A DNA stretch of 32,309 nucleotides, from NCBI GenBank assembly GCA_012799455.1, contig JAAZLE010000022.1, positions 1 through 32,309 on the forward strand, written 5' to 3'. The notes under the pieces are model-generated. The model made no database searches. It was not told the DNA's origin and worked only from the letters and a program-made list of their open reading frames with translations. A program made the translations under genes and the position numbers. This DNA comes from Clostridiales bacterium. GTDB lineage: Bacteria > Bacillota > Clostridia > Christensenellales > DTU072. This document shows positions 18,753-28,667 of the stretch, one piece after another; the first letter of the stretch is position 1; every line of letters starts with the position of its first letter.

Positions 18753-19115
18753 ATGGCAGAATTAAACATTCAAGGCACAAGCCGTACATTTGAAGAAAAA
18801 CTAGCAGCACTAGATGCAGACAAGAAGGCAGCATTTGAGCAAATTCAAGCAGCCCTTCTCGCAAAGAAAGGTGTAAAAGAGAGAGTAAGCAAAAAGTATC
18901 TAACTTTCAACCGTGGAAGAGAACAAATTGCAAGAATCAGCATCATCTCAACAAGCCTACGCGTACACTTAGCAGTAGATCTAGACGAGTACAAAGAGCA
19001 AACTTGGATGAAAGACTATTCAGGCAAAGTTGCTTATGAAAGAGTACCAGGAATGGTCAGAGTCTCTTCACCACTAGCAGTAAGAAGAATTCTAGCAATT
19101 ATAGAAAAACTATAA
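18753..19115 (+). CDS. Conserved 120-aa soluble protein, function unknown
   Basis: A 120-aa, Ala/Lys-rich, charged protein. An N-terminal helical half (FEEKLAALDADKKAAFEQIQ) is followed by a conserved-looking core (KGVKERVSKKYLTFNRGREQ, RISIISTSLRVHLAVDLDEY, YERVPGMVRVSSPLAVRRIL). The core resembles a small domain that recurs in clostridial proteins of unknown function (pattern KGVKSRISxKxxSFRxGRxQIAKI...LYLALDPxEY); this is from memory and unverified. AAGGAGG, the A-rich leader and a strong terminator suggest high expression. Partner of the membrane protein upstream. Confidence 0.8.
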   Translation: MAELNIQGTSRTFEEKLAALDADKKAAFEQIQAALLAKKGVKERVSKKYLTFNRGREQIARISIISTSLRVHLAVDLDEYKEQTWMKDYSGKVAYERVPGMVRVSSPLAVRRILAIIEKL

Positions 19116-19143: not shown

Positions 19144-19167
19144 AGCCACCCAAGCGGTGGCTTTTTT
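19144..19167 (+). terminator. Rho-independent terminator of the 120-aa gene
   Basis: Perfect 7-bp stem AGCCACC/GGTGGCT with loop CAAGC, followed by T6. It lies 28 nt after the stop. The loop and 3' arm recur near 21008 without the 5' arm. Confidence 0.92.
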
Positions 19168-19173
19168 GTTATA
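19151..19173 (+). repeat. 23-bp direct repeat, left copy
   Basis: Begins CAAGCGGTGGC, then T6 and GTTATA. Identical over 23 bp to 21008-21030. Similarity continues (ATTTGC) after an 11-nt insertion in the right copy. Forms the loop and 3' arm of the terminator here. Confidence 0.85.
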
Positions 19174-19336
19174 TTTGCAGTTGATTTTCGATATTTTAGC
19201 TATTTTCGCTATCGCCCTGCACTACTTAAGATTAAACTTTCACACTTATTTATATTGTTTCTAATTAGAATCTTCAGCCTTATATAGTAATTTTATATAC
19301 AAAACTGTTTTTATTTATTACTGTATAATACTTGGT

Positions 19337-20413
19337 TTATGTTGAAATAGCATATTTTGTTCTTAATACATTATATTTCCAATCATCGTAACGTATAAAT
19401 CCATCTTTTTGTAATCTTCCTAAAACAATACTTGGATCTCGGTCAATTCTATTTGCAAATTCTTTTATTTTTACTATAGAAAAATCATTTGCCTCAACAA
19501 ACCGAGTATACTCAGCTTGAGGAATTAAAGAGTTTTCTGCATATAAATTTGCTTTTTCTTCCACTGCGCCTGATTCATTTTCAAAAGAGATGCCGAAATC
19601 TCTATTTATTATGTGCCCTATTTCATGGAATAATGTAAACCAAAAAGAATCTGAGTTATTATTTCTATCATTGACCATAAGCATTATATGATCCCCCAGT
19701 TTCTTTGTAGCACCATTAATTTTTGACCCCGGTATGTTGGGCAATACAATTAAATCAACACCCGATTCCTTAAACGCCTTCTTAATCAATCCATAAAATT
19801 CATTATGTTTTTTAGTCAACGATAAAGCATAGTCGACTGACTGTAAAAACTTGTTTTTATCGTACTTAGGAAAATCTTTTTTTGTCAACGATAAATTTGT
19901 TGCTATTTGAACCATAATATTTGCACGAACAATACTAGCTTCGGACTGTTCTAATGCAGGTCGTCTAAAATTAACATACATATCTGTATTTTTAAAAACA
20001 GTCAAAGACGAAACATGCAAAAACTCTCTAACATTTTTAATCTGCTCATCGGTTTTTTGGGGGATGTCTGGTAAGCCAAAATTATCTCTAAAATATGAAT
20101 ATTTGATATATTTAAACACTTCTTTTTCTGCATCTAATTCCTTTTCGCGATTAAACCTAACAATTAAACTATCATACTCTGTCTGTAAATTTAACCAGTA
20201 TTGAACAGATGTACCAATCAGTCGAGATAATTTATTTGCGATATCTACTGAAATACTTTGGCCTCCCCTAACTATATAGCTAATATTTTTAGGAGTGGTT
20301 CCAAGTCTATTTGCAAAATCTTCCTGTGTTAAACCAAGTTCGTCAATGTATTCCTTTATGTAATAGCCTGGATGAAATGCAATTTTATTTCCAAATTCTA
20401 CATAATTACTCAT
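19337..20413 (-). CDS. HigA-like antitoxin: HTH fused to ImmA/IrrE metallopeptidase
   Basis: A 358-aa protein. Residues 10-80 form a HigA/XRE-type HTH (HPGYYIKEYIDELGLTQEDF, ISYIVRGGQSIS). The C-terminal half holds an ImmA/IrrE-type zinc peptidase with HEIGH (His263, Glu264, His267) and a downstream VEEKANLYAENSL helix giving the third ligand. Such proteins repress their TA operon and neutralise a RelE/HigB-type toxin. ATG 20413 lies inside the last codons of the frame-corrected toxin gene (8-bp overlap), so the two are translationally coupled; GAGGTG is 10 nt upstream. The gene appears intact although its toxin is not. Confidence 0.85.
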   Translation of the reverse strand: MSNYVEFGNKIAFHPGYYIKEYIDELGLTQEDFANRLGTTPKNISYIVRGGQSISVDIANKLSRLIGTSVQYWLNLQTEYDSLIVRFNREKELDAEKEVFKYIKYSYFRDNFGLPDIPQKTDEQIKNVREFLHVSSLTVFKNTDMYVNFRRPALEQSEASIVRANIMVQIATNLSLTKKDFPKYDKNKFLQSVDYALSLTKKHNEFYGLIKKAFKESGVDLIVLPNIPGSKINGATKKLGDHIMLMVNDRNNNSDSFWFTLFHEIGHIINRDFGISFENESGAVEEKANLYAENSLIPQAEYTRFVEANDFSIVKIKEFANRIDRDPSIVLGRLQKDGFIRYDDWKYNVLRTKYAIST

Positions 20414-20779
20414 AATGTTCACTCACCTCTTTTATTTCAACAATTCTAACATTCATAGCAATCTCATCAATATTACAAGGAACAAATGGTTGTTCGTTCT
20501 CATCTAATGGTTCCAAAATTATTCTCCATTTTTCTCGAATTGTTTTAACGTCAATTGCGAAAAACCATCAAAATTTTTTCCTTTTCCCTTATTAATCAAC
20601 TTATGAAAGCGCATTTGTTTCTGCACAATGATATCCTTTATATTTTCCGCTTGATTTAGCGCATTTATTCTCGAAAGCAAAGAAATCGCCAACGCTTTTT
20701 GACCACCAAAAAACTTCATAGCTTTCTTCAAATCATTGCAAATTTCTTTAACTTTAGCATCTTTGTATATAACTCTCAA
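20406..20779 (-). pseudogene. HigB-like (RelE/ParE superfamily) toxin, frameshifted
   Basis: Read from TTG 20779 (AGAGGT 7-8 nt upstream) the frame gives a HigB-type N terminus (VIYKDAKVKEICNDLKKAMK, LLSRINALNQAENIKDI, MRFHKL). After residue 73 (KNFDGF) it runs into 13 unrelated residues and TAA at 20519. Shifting the frame by one base at a T5 run restores FAIDVKTIREKWRIILEPLD, NEQPFVPCNIDEIA and VRIVEIKEVSEHYE, ending at 20406 and overlapping the antitoxin start. The corrected toxin would be 124 aa, the normal family size. HigB-type toxins are ribosome-dependent mRNA nucleases. Loss of one T, a phase-variable tract, -1 slippage or a base-call error could each explain it. Confidence 0.88.
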
Positions 20780-20802
20780 GAAAGAACCTCTTGCAAAACA
20801 TT

Positions 20803-20853
20803 AGATTACCCATCAGGTAATCTGATTATATCCTGTTATAATAAAGTTGTCAA
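20803..20853 (-). promoter_or_regulatory. Consensus promoter and operator of the toxin-antitoxin operon
   Basis: Minus strand TTGACA (20848-20853), exactly 17 bp, TATAAT (20825-20830): a perfect consensus. Just downstream is a perfect inverted repeat AGATTACC-N5-GGTAATCT (20803-20810 and 20816-20823) covering the likely transcription start. This is the usual layout for repression by the HTH antitoxin. Confidence 0.88.
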
Positions 20854-21007
20854 TAGCAATTATCTCTATCATGAAAAATAAAATACAATGTAGACTATTC
20901 ACGTTAAATATAATTTATAAACTCTTATCTAAATGTATAAAATATTCTGGTAAGTTAAATAACTAACTAATGAGTTTTATTTTCATAAAAACCCTTGTTA
21001 AAGTCTT

Positions 21008-21030
21008 CAAGCGGTGGCTTTTTTGTTATA
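21008..21030 (+). repeat. 23-bp direct repeat, right copy
   Basis: Exact copy of 19151-19173. The 5' arm of the terminator hairpin is missing, so it cannot act as a terminator. A 10-bp palindrome ATAGCGCTAT (21028-21037) overlaps its end and is absent from the left copy. Confidence 0.85.
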
Positions 21031-21062
21031 GCGCTATTATATTTGCGACTATATGATTTCTA

Positions 21063-22352
21063 TTAAATGACAGTTTTATCTAGCAGGAAATCTATTATAT
21101 TGATATGCAATATACCATCGTTATCATACCATCTTTTTCCAACATCTCTACGTATTATTATTTTAGGAAATGAGTCTTGGATTAGAGAAAAAGGCCTTTT
21201 TTCAATGTGTTGTTTTTCTTCATTATCAATAATATATGTAGATTGTATATACACCTTTTTCCCTCCCAAGGTGGCGACAAAGTCAATTTCTCTTGGCAGC
21301 CTTACAGAATTAGCATTATTGTTTACTACCCTTTCATGTACCACCCCAACATCGACTGAAAAACCCCTAATGATTAGTTCGTTATAGATGATATTTTCCA
21401 TAATATGAGTGATTTCTTGTTGCCTAAATCCAAGTCGCGCATTTCTTAATCCAATATCTTCTGCATAATATTTATTAGGAAAATCAAAGTACGACTTCCC
21501 TTTTACATCATATCTTTTACTTTCAGAAAATAAAAATGCATCTTGTAAATGTGTTATATATGCTCTTATTGTGTTTGAAGATACGTCTGTATTTAATTTG
21601 GATTTTAGTGTATTACGAAGTTTATTAGGATTAGTTAAAGAACCTATAGACGAACAAAGCAAATCTATAATATGTTCTAAAACATCTTGCCTTTCAATTT
21701 TTCTTCTTTCAACAATATCTTTTATGTATACTTCGCTAAATAGCGATTTTAAATAATGCATTTTTGCGGCATCATTAGGTCTAGAAATAATGAGTGGCAT
21801 ACCGCCATAAACTGAGTAGTCATTAAAAGCTACTAAAGAGTCTCCCCCAACAGCAGAAAAATATTCCGAAAAGCTCAGCGGATGTACTCTTATCTCGCTA
21901 GCACGCCCTCTAAATTGCGTCAAAATATCTGATGATAATAACTTTGAGTTGCTCCCAGTAACATAAATATCTAAATTGGCTATGCTATTTAGATCATTTA
22001 ATGCATCATAAAACGAAATTTTAGCACCGTCTGGATTATATGGATTAGCGACAACATCACTCATTTGAATTTCATCTATGAATAAATAGAAAGGCTTATC
22101 TTTTTTAGACACAATGCCTCTTACATAAGAAGCTAATTCCAAAGGATTTCTGTACTTTATGTCTTTTGCTAAATCTAGTTCAATTGAAATAATTTGGTCT
22201 TCTGTGATACCGCTTGCCAGTAAATGATTTCGATAAATTTTATTTAGCAAATAAGATTTACCAGAACGCCTAAGACCAGTTATAACTTTAACTAATCCAT
22301 CAAATTTATATGCAATTAGTTGATTTAAATAATAATCTCTTTTTATTTCCAT
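21063..22352 (-). CDS. AAA-family ATPase with DUF4143 C-terminal domain (AAA_14), type 1
   Basis: A 429-aa protein. Walker A GLRRSGKS (26-33), Walker B YLFIDEIQ (89-96), a sensor-like YVTGSNSKLL segment, then a winged-helix/DUF4143 part with a nuclease-like C-terminal core (REIDFVA..GKKVYIQSTY). This large family is common in gut bacteria and archaea, usually single, with no agreed function; nuclease or TA-like roles have been suggested. I chose ATG 22352 (EIKRDYYLNQL, the normal family start). An ATG 78 nt upstream falls on the predicted -35. Convergent with nothing; it ends 33 nt right of the 23-bp repeat. Confidence 0.85.
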   Translation of the reverse strand: MEIKRDYYLNQLIAYKFDGLVKVITGLRRSGKSYLLNKIYRNHLLASGITEDQIISIELDLAKDIKYRNPLELASYVRGIVSKKDKPFYLFIDEIQMSDVVANPYNPDGAKISFYDALNDLNSIANLDIYVTGSNSKLLSSDILTQFRGRASEIRVHPLSFSEYFSAVGGDSLVAFNDYSVYGGMPLIISRPNDAAKMHYLKSLFSEVYIKDIVERRKIERQDVLEHIIDLLCSSIGSLTNPNKLRNTLKSKLNTDVSSNTIRAYITHLQDAFLFSESKRYDVKGKSYFDFPNKYYAEDIGLRNARLGFRQQEITHIMENIIYNELIIRGFSVDVGVVHERVVNNNANSVRLPREIDFVATLGGKKVYIQSTYIIDNEEKQHIEKRPFSLIQDSFPKIIIRRDVGKRWYDNDGILHINIIDFLLDKTVI

Positions 22353-22374
22353 CTCGCCACCGCTTTGAACATTT

Positions 22375-22430
22375 GAGCCCAAATGGGCTCTACTTTTCAT
22401 TATAATACCATAATTACCAGGGTATATCAA
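22375..22430 (-). promoter_or_regulatory. Promoter and leader palindrome of the type 1 ATPase gene
   Basis: Minus strand TTGATA (22425-22430), 17-bp spacer, TATTAT (22402-22407). About 12 bp after the -10 begins the perfect palindrome GAGCCCA-AA-TGGGCTC (22375-22390), in the first transcribed bases. It may be an operator or a 5' stabilising stem. Confidence 0.6.
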
Positions 22431-22604
22431 TATTTTATGTTTTTATTTTGATTGAGAAAAGCTAGCATTATTATGTGATATATCTACCTTATCATTAGTT
22501 GTAATATGAAAAGCTCTAAAACCAATTATATTTTTCACTTTATCCTTAAGAAGCGTCGTCACAAACAGAATACTTTCGTGAATGATAATAAATATATTTT
22601 TTGA

Positions 22605-22610
22605 TATAAT
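22605..22610 (+). promoter_or_regulatory. Extended -10 promoter of the GH127-like gene
   Basis: TGA-TATAAT with a poor -35, about 30 nt upstream of ATG 22640. AGAGGA supplies the SD. Confidence 0.6.
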
Positions 22611-22639
22611 CAATTTATAAAAAGAATAATAGAGGATTT

Positions 22640-24544
22640 ATGTTAGATTCTAAGTTCAAAAAAATCCCATTAGGAAATATCGAGCCCAAAGGTTGGCTTA
22701 AGAGACAGCTGGAAGTACAAGGAGATGGACTTTCGGGAAATGTCATGGATTTGTTTCGAGACTTATCTAAAAAGTCAGCATGGCTTGGCGGAAACGGAGA
22801 AAGCTGGGAAAGAGGACCATACTATGTCGATGGATTAATGCCCCTTGCGTTCCTACTAAAAGACGATAAACTACTCCAGCTGACCTATCTTTGGATTGAT
22901 TCGATTTTAGACTCGCAAGATGCAGAAGGTTTTTTCGGGCCTAAAAAAAATAAAGACTGGTGGCCAAGAATGGTTGTCACCAAAATGCTACCAGATTACT
23001 TTGAAGCATCTAATGATGAGAGGGTTATTCCATTTTTGACAAAATACTATCATTATATGAATAAAAACATTGAGGAAAGACCCTTATTTAGCTGGGCAGC
23101 CGTAAGAGCTTGCGAAGAGCTAATTGGAATTAAGTGGCTATATGAAAAAACAAAGTTAGAAGAATTAAAAGAACTTGCTAGCAAGATTCTTAAATATCGT
23201 TTTGACTGGGTAGGTGAATTTGCTAATTTACGCTGGCCCGAAGCATCCAAAAACTATTATTCATCTAATAAATTTAATATCAAAAAAGTTCTCTTTTATG
23301 CCCCTGACTTTATTAGAAACATTCTAGGCATAAAAGAAAGGAAAAAAGAAAAGACTGAAAAGAGAGAACAGAATTTATTTAATCAGTTCTATCACGCTAC
23401 TCATGGAGTAAATATTGCAATGGCTCTGAAGTATCCAGCATATGAAGCACTCTTTACGAATGAAAACAATAAAATGAGCATTGCTAAAAACGGATTTAAT
23501 AAAATCATGAGTAAAAACGGAACTGCAATATCTTTGTTTACCTGCGATGAGCATTTAAGTGGAGTCGAAGCATTCCAAGGAACGGAGCTGTGCACTGTTG
23601 CAGAAAGTATGTTTAGCGCAGAGAAAAACTATGAAATAACTGGAGATAGGTTCTGGGCTGATCTTCTTGAAAAATGGGCATATAATGCATTCCCTGCAAC
23701 TTTTACTCCTGACATGTGCTCTCATCAATATGTCCAACAAACAAATCAGATTTCTGCAACTACCGCTAAAAGAACATGGTATGACGCATACAACAAAGCA
23801 AATATCTATGGCCTTAAACCCAATTATGCATGCTGCCTTTCAAACATGCATCAAGGCTTTCCAAAGTTTGTAGAGCACATAGCATTTACAAAAGATAATA
23901 CTTTAATTTTAGTCGCCCCACTCGCCTCTCAGATAAATACAGTTCTTAACGATGAGGAAGTATCTCTATCTATTGACTCTGAATACCCCTTCCGAAACAG
24001 TGCGACAATTAAAGTAAATAAAGGAAATTTTAACATACTTATCCAACGCCCAGAATTTGTAACAAGCATACGTGTAAATAGCAAAGACTTCTTTGATGAT
24101 GAGATATTGCTCCACGTATCTGCTAATGAAGAATATAAAATAGAATATAACTTCAAATTAAGAACAAAAAGAAATCCTGACTCATCAATATCTGTTTTCT
24201 ATGGTCCTTTATTAATGGCATTACCAATAAAAGAGAATATAAAAATGGGCGCATCAAGGTTTTCAAATAGAGAGATGAAGCCCGCTTCGGAATGGAGATA
24301 TGGGATTAAATCAGATCTTTCTGACGCAATAATTAAAACTATGGACAGTTCATCAAAGCTGCCTTTTGGAACTCCTAACATTGCAGTCGAGGTCACCGGA
24401 AAGAGAGTTGAATGGAAAGTTAAAAACAATCAATGCGACAGAGTCAGCTTAGTAAAAGACAATAATAACGAATATGAAAGATTAGTGCTTGTCCCTTACG
24501 GAACTACAAATTTACGGATTTCACAACTCCCCGAAGTGCATTAA
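22640..24544 (+). CDS. GH127/DUF1680-like glycoside hydrolase (predicted beta-L-arabinofuranosidase family)
   Basis: A 634-aa protein with an (alpha/alpha)6-barrel N-terminal two-thirds (WLKRQLEVQGDGLSGN, WERGPYYVDGLMPLAF) and a beta-sandwich C terminus. The metal/nucleophile set of GH127 is present: Glu316 and Cys318 (GTELCTVAE) and adjacent Cys398-Cys399 (NYACCLSNMHQG). Their spacing matches HypBA1 (Glu338, Cys340, Cys417, Cys418), where one Cys is the nucleophile. No signal peptide, so it should work on imported oligosaccharides. No transporter or sugar gene is adjacent; it sits between two ATPase genes. Its substrate may be arabinofuranose or another sugar. Confidence 0.87.
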   Translation: MLDSKFKKIPLGNIEPKGWLKRQLEVQGDGLSGNVMDLFRDLSKKSAWLGGNGESWERGPYYVDGLMPLAFLLKDDKLLQLTYLWIDSILDSQDAEGFFGPKKNKDWWPRMVVTKMLPDYFEASNDERVIPFLTKYYHYMNKNIEERPLFSWAAVRACEELIGIKWLYEKTKLEELKELASKILKYRFDWVGEFANLRWPEASKNYYSSNKFNIKKVLFYAPDFIRNILGIKERKKEKTEKREQNLFNQFYHATHGVNIAMALKYPAYEALFTNENNKMSIAKNGFNKIMSKNGTAISLFTCDEHLSGVEAFQGTELCTVAESMFSAEKNYEITGDRFWADLLEKWAYNAFPATFTPDMCSHQYVQQTNQISATTAKRTWYDAYNKANIYGLKPNYACCLSNMHQGFPKFVEHIAFTKDNTLILVAPLASQINTVLNDEEVSLSIDSEYPFRNSATIKVNKGNFNILIQRPEFVTSIRVNSKDFFDDEILLHVSANEEYKIEYNFKLRTKRNPDSSISVFYGPLLMALPIKENIKMGASRFSNREMKPASEWRYGIKSDLSDAIIKTMDSSSKLPFGTPNIAVEVTGKRVEWKVKNNQCDRVSLVKDNNNEYERLVLVPYGTTNLRISQLPEVH

Positions 24545-25761
24545 ATGTATGAGATAGGAATGATGTAATCATTTAAACCTATTTTCCTTTTTTCTTGGTA
24601 TGTACAAATAATTCCACCTGACCCTCGTTTTACATCACCTAAATTATCTAGTACTGAAAAGTTTGATATATCTCTACTACTGGGATTAGCTGTCTTTTTA
24701 ATCTCTATTGGATGTAGTATGCCATTTGTTTCTATTATTAAATCAACTTCACGCTTATCTTTATCCCTATAATAATATAATGGAGCATTGGTGATTCCTG
24801 CATTAAAATAACTCTTTAGTATTTCACTAATTACAAATGTTTCAAAAAAAGCCCCTGCCATTGCTCCTCTTTCCAAGGTTTCTGGGGTTGACCATCTTGT
24901 CAAATGTGCAGCTAGCCCAGTATTTAAAAAATATAACTTTGGAGTTTTAATCGCTCTCTTAGTGACATTATTAAAATATGGTTGTAATAAATAAACAATA
25001 CCAGATGCTTCAAGTACTGAAAGCCAACTCTTAATTGTTGGAGCACTAACACCCACATCTCTAGCAATATCGTTATAGTTAAGCATTTGTCCTGTCCTTG
25101 CAGCGACTACAGTCATAAACCTAACAAAATCACTAAGATTGCCTACTTGTGTTAAATCTCTTACATCTCTTTGAATATACGTACTTAAATAACTTTCATA
25201 GAAAAGTTCTATATCTTTTTCGCTATCTTCTAGTGCTGGCATATGCCCTTTATATACGCGTTTAAATATCTCATTATAACCAATATCTACGACATATTTA
25301 CTTCTCTCAGAAATATATTCCTCTGTCGGAACAAATGGTTTATGGTAGCCGACACCGTGAACCTCTCTGAGCGAAAGCCCTTGTAAACTAATAATTCCTA
25401 CTCGACCAGCCATGCTTTCTGTAACTTTTTTCATTAAATGAAATGACTGTGAGCCAGTCAGATAAAAAAGTCCTGTTTTTCCACTCCTGTCAGCTATCAT
25501 TTTTATGTATGGAAAAAGCTCTGGAGCATATTGGACCTCGTCAACAATAAGAGGTGTTGAATGTTTTTGAAAAAAATTACCAGGCTCTTCTTTTGCTATC
25601 ATAAGAGCAACTGGATCATCGAAAGAAATATACTCCAAATCGCCAAGCAAGTTTTTTAAAAGCGTTGTTTTACCAACTTGTCTAGGCCCCGTTATTAACA
25701 CGGCTGAAAACATTTTTGATGCCTTTTTCACAACATCTTCTACATGCCTCTTTATATACAT
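24541..25761 (-). CDS. AAA-family ATPase with DUF4143 domain, type 2
   Basis: A 406-aa protein with Walker A GPRQVGKT (25-32), Walker B LIVDEVQ (71-77), FYLTGSQSF sensor segment, a winged-helix (DIARDVGVSAPTIKSWLSVL) and a PD-(D/E)xK-like end (YYYRDKDKREVDLII and HPIEIKK). This is the common bacterial AAA_14-DUF4143 type, clearly different from the type 1 gene nearby. Role unknown. Its TAA overlaps the TAA of the convergent glycosidase gene in the tetramer TTAA. The upstream promoter carries an inverted repeat that suggests specific regulation. SD is weak (GAGGG at long spacing). Confidence 0.87.
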   Translation of the reverse strand: MYIKRHVEDVVKKASKMFSAVLITGPRQVGKTTLLKNLLGDLEYISFDDPVALMIAKEEPGNFFQKHSTPLIVDEVQYAPELFPYIKMIADRSGKTGLFYLTGSQSFHLMKKVTESMAGRVGIISLQGLSLREVHGVGYHKPFVPTEEYISERSKYVVDIGYNEIFKRVYKGHMPALEDSEKDIELFYESYLSTYIQRDVRDLTQVGNLSDFVRFMTVVAARTGQMLNYNDIARDVGVSAPTIKSWLSVLEASGIVYLLQPYFNNVTKRAIKTPKLYFLNTGLAAHLTRWSTPETLERGAMAGAFFETFVISEILKSYFNAGITNAPLYYYRDKDKREVDLIIETNGILHPIEIKKTANPSSRDISNFSVLDNLGDVKRGSGGIICTYQEKRKIGLNDYIIPISYI

Positions 25762-25776
25762 AAAACTACCGACCCT

Positions 25777-25828
25777 CGACTAAATCAAAGTGTAATTTTA
25801 TTTTAGTCGAAAAGTTCGCCTTTGTCAA
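25777..25828 (-). promoter_or_regulatory. Promoter with inverted repeat for the type 2 ATPase gene
   Basis: Minus strand TTGACA (25823-25828), exactly 17 bp, TAAAAT (25800-25805). A perfect inverted repeat CGACTAAA-N17-TTTAGTCG (25802-25809 and 25777-25784) has one arm on the -10 and the other about 20 bp downstream. The arm spacing puts both on one DNA face, fitting repression by a dimer or pair of dimers. Confidence 0.72.
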
Positions 25829-25863
25829 GACCTCGCGTAAGACAACTCCGCTAGTTGATGCAC

Positions 25864-25889
25864 AGAAAAACAGCACGTCATCACGTGCT
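25864..25889 (-). terminator. Terminator after fhs
   Basis: Perfect 7-bp stem AGCACGT/ACGTGCT with a 4-nt loop (25872-25889). On the minus strand it is followed by GTTTTTCTG. It lies about 50 nt past the fhs stop. The plus side also has T residues, so it may work both ways. Confidence 0.75.
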
Positions 25890-25937
25890 TGTTTTCCATA
25901 AAATTTTGTTAATTAGTTAAAATTCTGGTTGTTTTAT

Positions 25938-27584
25938 TTAAAACAATCCTTCTATGTTTCTATTTTCATCGATGGTCATTTTAATGGCTGCTGGCTCTTT
26001 AGAAAGTCCTGGCATTAACATAATCGCGCCGCATACCGCTACTATGAACTCTGCCCCACCCCTGATTTTTAGCTCTTTAACTTCTAAAGCAAAACCTTCA
26101 GGCCTACCGAGTAATTTCGCATCAGCAGACAGTGAGTATTGTGTTTTTGCTACACAAACTGGGAACTTACTGTATTTTCCACTTTTTTCTATATGCCTTA
26201 GATCTTCTTTTGCCTTGTCGCTTAGAACCACACTTCCTGCACCATAAATTTCACTAGCTATTTTTTCTAATTTTTCTATAACACTTAAATTTTCGGAATA
26301 TAAGAAGTTAAAAGTCTTTTTATTTTCACAAGCTTTTATTACTTCTTTTGCTAACTCTTCACAACCTGCGCCACCTTTTGCCCAAGCTTCTGCAACAACT
26401 GCCGTTGCGCCAAACTTTTCAGCAGCTTTTTTAATTATATCTAGTTCTTTTTCAGTGTCGGTTGTAAACCTGTTAATAGCAATTACTGGAGTTATGCCAA
26501 ACTTTTGAACGTTTTCAATATGCTTTTCTAAGTTACATAGACCTGCTTTAAGTCCCTCAATATTTTCACTATTTATATTTTCTCTTGCAACGCCGCCATT
26601 ATACTTTAACGCCCTTGCTGTAGTCACTATAACAACTGCCGAAGGAGTTAAGTTAGACTTTCTACATTTAATATCCATAAACTTTTCAGCGCCTAAATCA
26701 GCACCAAACCCTGCCTCTGTTACGGTATAATCAGCTAGTGTCATAGCAGTTTTTGTTGCAATAACTGTATTGCATCCATGAGCAATATTTGCAAAAGGAC
26801 CGCCATGAATTAGTGCTGGTGTTCCACCGAGTGTTTGGACCATATTAGGATACAAAGCATCAGACAAAAGTATAGTCATTGCATTTTCTGCTTTTAGTTC
26901 TCTAGCATATACCTCACCGCCAGACTTGTTGTATCCAACAACAATGTTCCCAAGCCTTCTCTTTAAATCCTTTAAGTTGGTTGCTAAACAAAATATTGAC
27001 ATAACTTCACTTGCAGCTGTTATATCAAATCCATCCATTCTTGGCACTCCATTCTTCTCGCCCAATGCTACTTCTATTTGCCTTAGTGCCCTATCGTTCA
27101 TATCCATACATCTCCTCCAGATAACCTCCTCTATTTCCAAGGCGTTTCCTTGCATAATGTGGTTATCTATTAGTGCAGAAAGCAGATTATTTGCAGCCGT
27201 TACAGCATGTAAGTCTCCATTAAAGTGAAGGTTAATATCTGCCATTGGTACTACTTGTGAATATCCACCACCTGCTGCTCCACCTTTAATCCCAAATACA
27301 GGACCGAGCGATGGCTCTCTCAAAGCTAAACAGGTTTTTTTACCAACTCTGGATAACCCATCCGCTAGACCTATGGAAATAGTAGTTTTGCCTTCGCCAT
27401 ATGGGGTTGGATTTGTCGCAGTTACTAGTATTAATTCACTTTTAGGATTTTCATCGTATTTAGTAGTTATTTTTGCCCTATATTTTCCGTATGGTTCAAT
27501 ATTTTCTTTATCTACGCCAAGAGTTTTAGCTATCTCTTCAATTGGTTTCGTCTGATGTTTTGCTGCAATTTCTAAATCTGTCAT
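25938..27584 (-). CDS. fhs: Formate-tetrahydrofolate ligase
   Basis: Makes 10-formyl-THF from formate, THF and ATP; central to one-carbon metabolism and the methyl branch of acetogenesis. The 548-aa length is normal (about 555). Visible signatures are the ATP-binding TATNPTPYGEGKTTISIGLA (55-74), LREPSLGPVFGIKGGAAGGG, TPALIHGGPFANIAHGCN and the C-terminal VVAVCGAIMLMPGLSKEPAA-like end. ATG 27584 has GAGGG 5 nt upstream, and a nested hairpin lies 8 nt before that SD. No other folate gene is in the window, so the pathway cannot be judged from here. Confidence 0.97.
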   Translation of the reverse strand: MTDLEIAAKHQTKPIEEIAKTLGVDKENIEPYGKYRAKITTKYDENPKSELILVTATNPTPYGEGKTTISIGLADGLSRVGKKTCLALREPSLGPVFGIKGGAAGGGYSQVVPMADINLHFNGDLHAVTAANNLLSALIDNHIMQGNALEIEEVIWRRCMDMNDRALRQIEVALGEKNGVPRMDGFDITAASEVMSIFCLATNLKDLKRRLGNIVVGYNKSGGEVYARELKAENAMTILLSDALYPNMVQTLGGTPALIHGGPFANIAHGCNTVIATKTAMTLADYTVTEAGFGADLGAEKFMDIKCRKSNLTPSAVVIVTTARALKYNGGVARENINSENIEGLKAGLCNLEKHIENVQKFGITPVIAINRFTTDTEKELDIIKKAAEKFGATAVVAEAWAKGGAGCEELAKEVIKACENKKTFNFLYSENLSVIEKLEKIASEIYGAGSVVLSDKAKEDLRHIEKSGKYSKFPVCVAKTQYSLSADAKLLGRPEGFALEVKELKIRGGAEFIVAVCGAIMLMPGLSKEPAAIKMTIDENRNIEGLF

Positions 27585-27601
27585 TTTATCCCTCGTATAA
27601 T

Positions 27602-27643
27602 AATGTTGTTTGAGTTTAACCAGAGTAAATGGTTAGCAACATT
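27602..27643 (-). promoter_or_regulatory. Nested stem-loop in the fhs leader
   Basis: Outer arms AATGTTG/CAACATT (27602-27608 and 27637-27643) enclose TAACC/GGTTA (27617-27621 and 27631-27635). The element ends 8 nt from the fhs SD, so folding could affect translation. It does not match the THF or ZTP riboswitch consensus that I know. Confidence 0.45.
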
Positions 27644-27681
27644 AGTTGTATACATTCATTTATTCCATTTTATGCTTGACT

Positions 27682-27687
27682 ATTATA
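27682..27687 (-). promoter_or_regulatory. Possible -10 of fhs
   Basis: TATAAT on the minus strand about 98 nt upstream of the fhs ATG. No good -35. It would give a leader of about 90 nt containing the nested stem-loop. Confidence 0.35.
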
Positions 27688-27834
27688 TAGTTAGCTCCGT
27701 ACTAGTATTTTGAATGTTTTATTGACAACTTATAGCGCATTAATTACACGCTCGCTTTAATTATGCAAAATTAACGCAAAAATGTAAATGCTAAAACGTT
27801 ATATTTAAATGCAAGTGATATACTAAAAAGATAT

Positions 27835-28401
27835 TTACCATTTTATTCCTAGTTCATTTCTAACATCAACACGAATTCTAATCTCGTTTCTTGTAAAAGT
27901 AATAGAATATTTCCCCTTTGTCGCCGTGCGGTAAAACTCATACTTTTCAGTGATTTCCCATCCTTCTTTTTTCATAATCGTTTCAAAATCCGCACAAGAA
28001 CTTTTTAATGAAAAGCCATAAAGTTCTATTTCTGGATCGGTAATATGTATATAAGTAATATGTTTTTCCTTGTTCATATAATCAGGATATGGAGTTATAG
28101 TGTAAATAACACAATGTTCGGGATCAACTTGTTTGCCGTTTTCATCAATAGTTGGCGCGTATTCCATACCATAATAGTATGAGGCTGGGCTTTTAGTGTA
28201 TACATGTTTTTGTGTATGCGACGAAAAATCAACATTATCAACATTTTCTGCAATCCAAAACTCAAGATTAGTTTCAGGTCGAGCCAAAGTACTAGTCCTT
28301 AGCACAGGTGGAAGCCAGTCATTTGGTTTGTCGCATGCTGTAAACACTAAAAGTATTGGTACAATTAAAAAAATAAACAATAAAGCTAAGACTTTTTTCA
28401 T
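27835..28401 (-). CDS. Small lipoprotein of unknown function
   Basis: A 188-aa protein with a lipoprotein signal peptide (MKKVLALLFIFLIVPILLVF, then TAC with Cys23). The mature part is about 165 aa with alternating strands (HVYTKSPASYYYGMEYAPT, KYSITFTRNEIRIRVDVRNE), probably an all-beta or mixed fold facing outside the membrane. No domain recognised. SD GGGAGG is 7 nt before the ATG. It has its own extended -10 promoter and is divergent from the oxaloacetate decarboxylase operon. Confidence 0.85.
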   Translation of the reverse strand: MKKVLALLFIFLIVPILLVFTACDKPNDWLPPVLRTSTLARPETNLEFWIAENVDNVDFSSHTQKHVYTKSPASYYYGMEYAPTIDENGKQVDPEHCVIYTITPYPDYMNKEKHITYIHITDPEIELYGFSLKSSCADFETIMKKEGWEITEKYEFYRTATKGKYSITFTRNEIRIRVDVRNELGIKW

Positions 28402-28503
28402 TTAAAGCCTCCCAAATACTTTAAACAATCCTCTAAAAGACATAACACGTTCAGCTAATATATTTGCTCCTCTCATTAGCCAAACAGTTACTAGTGCTTA
28501 AAT

Positions 28504-28512
28504 ATTATATCA
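28504..28512 (-). promoter_or_regulatory. Extended -10 promoter of the small lipoprotein gene
   Basis: Minus strand TGA-TATAAT (-10 at 28504-28509), about 100 nt upstream of ATG 28401. The -35 is poor. Confidence 0.55.
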
Positions 28513-28638
28513 TATTACCTACCTAGACAGTTATGGTTTGAAGTTTATGAAACCTTAAGTCTTATTGCCTTTCCAATTCTATGGTCTTATATACTAAAAA
28601 ACACCGGTTAAAATTGGCGATTTTATACCCTTCTCATA

Positions 28639-28667
28639 TTGAGTTATTTTACTAAATATGTTATATT
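28639..28667 (+). promoter_or_regulatory. Promoter of the oxaloacetate decarboxylase operon
   Basis: TTGAGT (28639-28644), 17-bp spacer, TATATT (28662-28667), about 30 nt upstream of ATG 28699. Confidence 0.55.

Follow-up and report, generated by a model that had tools for sequence, protein, structure and literature searches.

A toxin-antitoxin operon bracketed by a duplicated terminator half in a Clostridiales genome

The window analysed here, a stretch of 32,309 nucleotides from a Clostridiales bacterium, carries a small toxin-antitoxin (TA) operon between two convergent genes. On the left is a DUF5655-like gene (18753-19115, plus strand; Pfam DUF5655 E 2e-4, just below the cut-off), which has 71% identical orthologues in both congeners and whose terminator is the putative insertion target. 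On the right is an AAA/DUF4143 ATPase gene (PADLOC PDC-S01; 21063-22430, minus strand), whose stop lies 33 bp beyond the right-hand copy of the repeat described below.

The operon is encoded on the minus strand in the order promoter, inverted repeat, toxin and antitoxin. The promoter, TTGACA-17-TATAAT (20825-20853), matches the consensus at 12 of 12 positions. Downstream of it is an inverted repeat, AGATTACCTGATGGGTAATCT (20803-20823, minus strand), which is likely the HigA operator; similar repeats are seen by eye ahead of the toxin in genomes G498, G686 and G486. The HigB-like toxin gene (20406-20779, minus strand) precedes the antitoxin gene in the same operon. It has no Pfam match and resembles the toxin of G019 weakly. 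Its frame shifts in a run of Ts (20560-20564), leaving the C-terminal part in another frame, while the homologues in G498, G686 and G486, its three closest relatives, are each read in a single uninterrupted frame that runs into the start of the antitoxin. Judged by these relatives, the toxin gene here is therefore either broken or wrongly assembled. This corrects the earlier note on this DNA: the toxin reading frame between the repeat copies is not intact.

The antitoxin gene (19337-20413, minus strand) encodes a protein of 359-361 aa in which a HigA-type HTH is joined to an M78 (ImmA/IrrE-like) peptidase domain, with matches to HTH_3 and Peptidase_M78. Its start was placed where, in relatives, it overlaps the toxin stop; the open reading frame list opens at 20422. 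The protein matches the HigA model TIGR02607 (E 1.9e-19) and, over residues 22-340, the PADLOC model PD-Lambda-2_B (E 3e-24). No third gene is found in 19174-21007, an interval occupied only by the antitoxin, part of the toxin and frames that overlap them. By its predicted products, the operon is of the HigB/HigA-M78-peptidase kind, corresponds to the A/B part of PD-lambda-2 and is phage-defence-like. PD-lambda-2 of E. coli is an anti-phage TA system of three components (PMC9519451): a toxin resembling HigB, a fusion of HigA with a peptidase, and a further component, C. The operon described here likewise places a HigB-like toxin gene ahead of one whose product joins a HigA-like HTH to a peptidase at the C-terminus. 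It differs in that C, which the E. coli system requires for defence, is missing between the repeats and in that the toxin frame is broken; any role in defence is putative here.

On both sides of the whole operon, promoter included, stands an exact direct 23-mer, CAAGCGGTGGCTTTTTTGTTATA, with copies in the same orientation at 19151-19173 and 21008-21030. These coordinates confirm the bracketing that the earlier note had reported. An exact search of the whole genome (a 1.62-Mb assembly, 94%-complete) returns these two copies and no others, and the core of the 23-mer, at up to one mismatch, is found in the same two places only. We also surveyed repeats in a 519-kb sample of this genome, namely the window and 40 further stretches. 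Within this sample the 23-mer is the sole non-coding exact direct repeat of at least 17 bp whose copies are more than 400 bp apart; the remaining repeats lie inside coding, largely paralogous, genes. When the 800-bp flanks of the operon are shuffled, the longest match is 8-12 bp, compared with 23 bp in the real flanks. A chance origin of the repeat is excluded. The presence of just two copies in the genome also excludes that the repeat is a common genomic terminator, an outcome that had been named as refuting an insertion. Across the order, 10 of 396 genomes match the 23-mer at up to three mismatches, this one included, and the other nine are near matches unrelated in context.

The two copies differ in what precedes them. 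The left copy (plus strand) forms part of a complete intrinsic terminator (19144-19168, plus strand; the terminator scan flagged the reverse strand) with a 7-bp stem, the 5-nt loop CAAGC and a T6 tract. The 5' arm of this hairpin, AGCCACC (19144-19150), lies outside the repeat, which starts at loop nucleotide 1 and comprises the loop CAAGC, the 3' arm GGTGGCT, the T tract and GTTATA. The start of the repeat therefore coincides exactly with the border between stem and loop, and its 3' end lies just past the T tract. The right copy (plus strand) has GTTAAAGTCTT where the 5' arm would be. The folding energy of the left hairpin is -18 kcal/mol (z = -4.3), whereas the right copy folds no better than its shuffles (z = +0.3), in agreement with the description of a complete hairpin on one side and a terminator half without its 5' arm on the other. 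We accordingly refer to the left copy as a candidate regenerated att half and to the right one as a putatively displaced 3' half. No RNA family or tRNA was found at the repeat site.

Removal of 19174-21030 leaves the DUF5655 stop, about 28 bp, one terminator, 33 bp and the AAA stop, i.e. a normal convergent gene pair with one common terminator and ordinary spacing. The arrangement is real and non-random, and a single insertion of a TA/defence operon of known kind into an unusual target explains it well. Our leading reading, tentative and at somewhat under an even chance, is that the operon was inserted site-specifically into the terminator, with regeneration of the target, probably by a tyrosine recombinase that is now absent. 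In such an event the HigB/HigA-M78 operon would have entered the terminator that separates the convergent DUF5655 and AAA/DUF4143 genes; the uninterrupted target would have read GAGCCACC-CAAGCGGTGGCTTTTTTGTTATA-GCGCTATTATATTTGC. Each side of the insert would have been left with the 23 bp that start at loop nucleotide 1 and end shortly beyond the T tract. The copy brought by the element would restore the hairpin beside the DUF5655 gene on the left, and the 3' half that the host had before the insertion would be pushed to the far end on the right. The crossover would likely be that of a tyrosine recombinase acting in the loop, with the hairpin arms serving, by analogy, as inverted core sites. 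With this recombinase encoded elsewhere or lost, the cassette would now be an immobile remnant.

A close parallel to this scheme is offered by islands in tRNA and tmRNA genes. In tDNA islands, island sequence restores the gene, a displaced fragment marks the far end and crossovers in the anticodon loop are common (PMC4383910). The present locus similarly has a regenerated target and a displaced 3' fragment as its endpoints, and the repeated block starts in a hairpin loop. It differs in its target, an intrinsic terminator, in its insert of 1.86 kb and in the lack of an integrase. Islander also discards, by its length filter, any candidate shorter than 2 kb, which counts against reading this 1.86-kb cassette as an island.

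As the earlier note had stated, no recombinase is encoded among the open reading frames between the repeats. It had added that the cassette may have been moved in trans; no plausible trans-acting integrase was found. The two tyrosine recombinases of the genome are both on other contigs. One, in the gene order mutS-mutL-miaA-...-xer-lexA, resembles a housekeeping Xer and was rejected as the mover, as was the other, which is HsdS-linked: the gene for this 266-aa protein adjoins a divergent gene for a type I HsdS (L054, G000:C44 about 105 kb), which suggests a specificity-switching invertase. A second element with the att-like sequence of the repeat was also not found. Cargo lying between two att-like repeats without a recombinase of its own recalls the CIMEs, attL/attR-bracketed remnants of integrative elements, but no helper element with a matching att sequence was found here. 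Integron cassettes, too, are small units of one gene each that a recombinase mobilises in trans, and TA cassettes are common in integrons; at this locus, however, no attC RYYYAAC/GTTRRRY boxes are seen by eye around either copy, and there is no array and no IntI.

The ends of the cassette bear on two other explanations. The non-coding left end (19174-19336) has no inverted repeat in common with the right end. Insertion by a DDE transposase with a 23-bp target-site duplication would account for the exact direct repeats flanking the cassette, but DDE transposons and MITEs differ from this cassette in having terminal inverted repeats, no transposase is present, and 23 bp exceeds the usual lengths of such duplications; we regard this explanation as highly improbable. 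Alternatively, foreign TA DNA may have been caught at a staggered break or template switch in the terminator, with fill-in duplicating the 23 bp, as a one-off event that required no dedicated machinery. Such a repair with templated duplication would account for the observed sequence as well. The lack of both a recombinase and inverted repeats at the cassette ends is in keeping with such an illegitimate insertion, as are the lack of a second example in about 735 kb and of flanking repeats at 14 other TA loci (see below), and terminator hairpins are known to be fragile or prone to slippage. A random break need not, however, have placed the start of the repeat precisely where stem and loop meet, and 23 exact bases are long for a fill-in. 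We consider this origin unlikely, while giving it real weight.

The sequence following each copy was examined as well. TTATATTTGC follows on directly from the left copy and is found again 11 bp beyond the right one (window 21031-21045), a pattern that slippage between TTATA repeats on one side would give; the chance of such a recurrence is about 0.002 for that 10-mer. This is what would be expected if a longer stretch of the terminator region, or of the gene end, had been duplicated long ago and had then decayed, with the TA genes placed between the copies later. Anchored alignments of the flanks outside the 23 bp do not clearly exceed the null on either side, and an exact identity that ends sharply does not fit gradual decay, so that an older duplication appears improbable.

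The TA genes themselves have foreign relatives. Homologues of the antitoxin at any significant level occur in 4 of 40 genomes of the family, and at E <= 1e-30 in 3 of 396 genomes of the order. The closest antitoxins, in G498 (60%), G686 (59%) and G486 (54%), belong to other families of the class, whereas the nearest identity within its own family is 32% and within its own order 36%, which supports horizontal acquisition of the operon. DNA similarity to these three genomes is confined to the operon genes and never reaches the window repeats. From these comparisons the operon moves horizontally, yet the repeat is peculiar to this locus. Separately, the human gut phage NatCom_20922 carries a HigA-M78-like gene (L081, 4007-5062; 31% identity) between its terminase and portal genes, with no annotated toxin adjoining; it is possibly an anti-defence gene or an orphan antitoxin.

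The DNA of the cassette region has no match in plasmids, and its right end matches nothing in the 40 family genomes beyond the repeat itself. The exact 23-mer is absent from viral contigs, two of which match a relaxed pattern of it. These searches bear on a Campbell-type event, in which RecA would have used the shared 23 bp to integrate a circle from a related strain, carrying the TA genes and the same terminator half. The resulting arrangement would be identical to that observed, and a shared length of 23 bp comes close to the least that RecA can recombine. The donor circle would, however, already have had to carry the species-specific terminator half, and neither the viral contigs nor the plasmids offer such a donor: the former lack the 23-mer and the latter have no DNA match to the cassette region. 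Such a route is, in our estimation, decidedly improbable.

Returning to insertion into the terminator, we compared the site with that of the two congeners. Both lack the TA operon: the upstream neighbour and the DUF5655 gene are kept and are followed directly by a pycB-like gene, which in the window starts at 28639. About 9.5 kb of the window (19174-28638) is thus absent from both congeners at the corresponding place, including the TA genes, two AAA/DUF4143 (PADLOC PDC-S01) genes, a GH127-like gene, fhs and a lipoprotein-like gene. The fhs gene is the only one in this genome and is single-copy and elsewhere in the congeners, so that part of the difference is a rearrangement. The interval from DUF5655 to pycB has the look of a variable hotspot. 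A 12-mer, GTGGCTTTTTTG, shared upstream of pycB in the congeners, was rejected, its chance being about 5%.

The congener terminator at the DUF5655 end has a different sequence, ACCCGGCAAAACCTGCCGGGT, and the window has further inserted genes; because of this, no base-exact empty site was found in the congeners. They prove the absence of the insert and not a base-exact empty site. The earlier note's proposal of an insertion into the terminator with duplication of the target is supported by the unique repeat, the foreign TA genes, their absence in congeners and the normal gene pair left after removal. Relatives carrying both copies without the TA genes, which would have spoken against it, were not found among the genomes searched.

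The earlier note had gone further, in proposing a mobile-cassette type that targets terminators and a search for other cassettes ending in terminator halves. We drew 37 strict terminators from about 735 kb, made up of 519 kb of this genome and 217 kb of the congener G001. Of the 37, that of the window alone is accompanied by another 3' half within its own stretch. At 14 other TA loci, from G019, G040, six plasmids and six genomes of the class (including G498, G686 and G486), there are no flanking direct repeats of at least 13 bp. The search thus returned no other such cassette in either sample. With the cassette's right end also absent from the 40 family genomes and no plausible integrase acting in trans, the proposed type is unsupported. 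Among the abstracts listed, none was recognised as dealing with terminator-targeted TA cassettes. We therefore give very little credence to the idea that recombinase-less TA/defence cassettes as a class use terminator hairpins as attachment sites, with a crossover in the loop, one side regenerated, the 3' half displaced and the integrase acting in trans; at present the locus stands as one well-marked insertion of an operon of known kind. If the site-specific reading is true, terminators would be targets much like tRNA genes, being symmetric, gene-terminal and repaired on insertion, so that no gene would be damaged by the entry of a defence cassette. It would also suggest an Islander-style genome scan in which terminators replace tDNAs.

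Two further observations concern the metagenome-assembled genome of congener G001. At L095 (G001:C66, 406-4049) there is an integron-like array that begins with the C-terminus of an integrase and continues with cassettes encoding a 642-aa protein and a kinase-like 354-aa protein; an attC-like repeat (50 nt, 96% identical) follows each cassette, in contrast to the window locus. This array may be contamination. In addition, the motif ATATGGAAAAAAATAGGGAAA occurs in 10 exact copies, in G001 only, some of them near tyrosine recombinases, with locations at L092 (G001:C45), L093 (G001:C162) and G001:C78. Some of these contigs look archaeal and are thus possibly contaminating.
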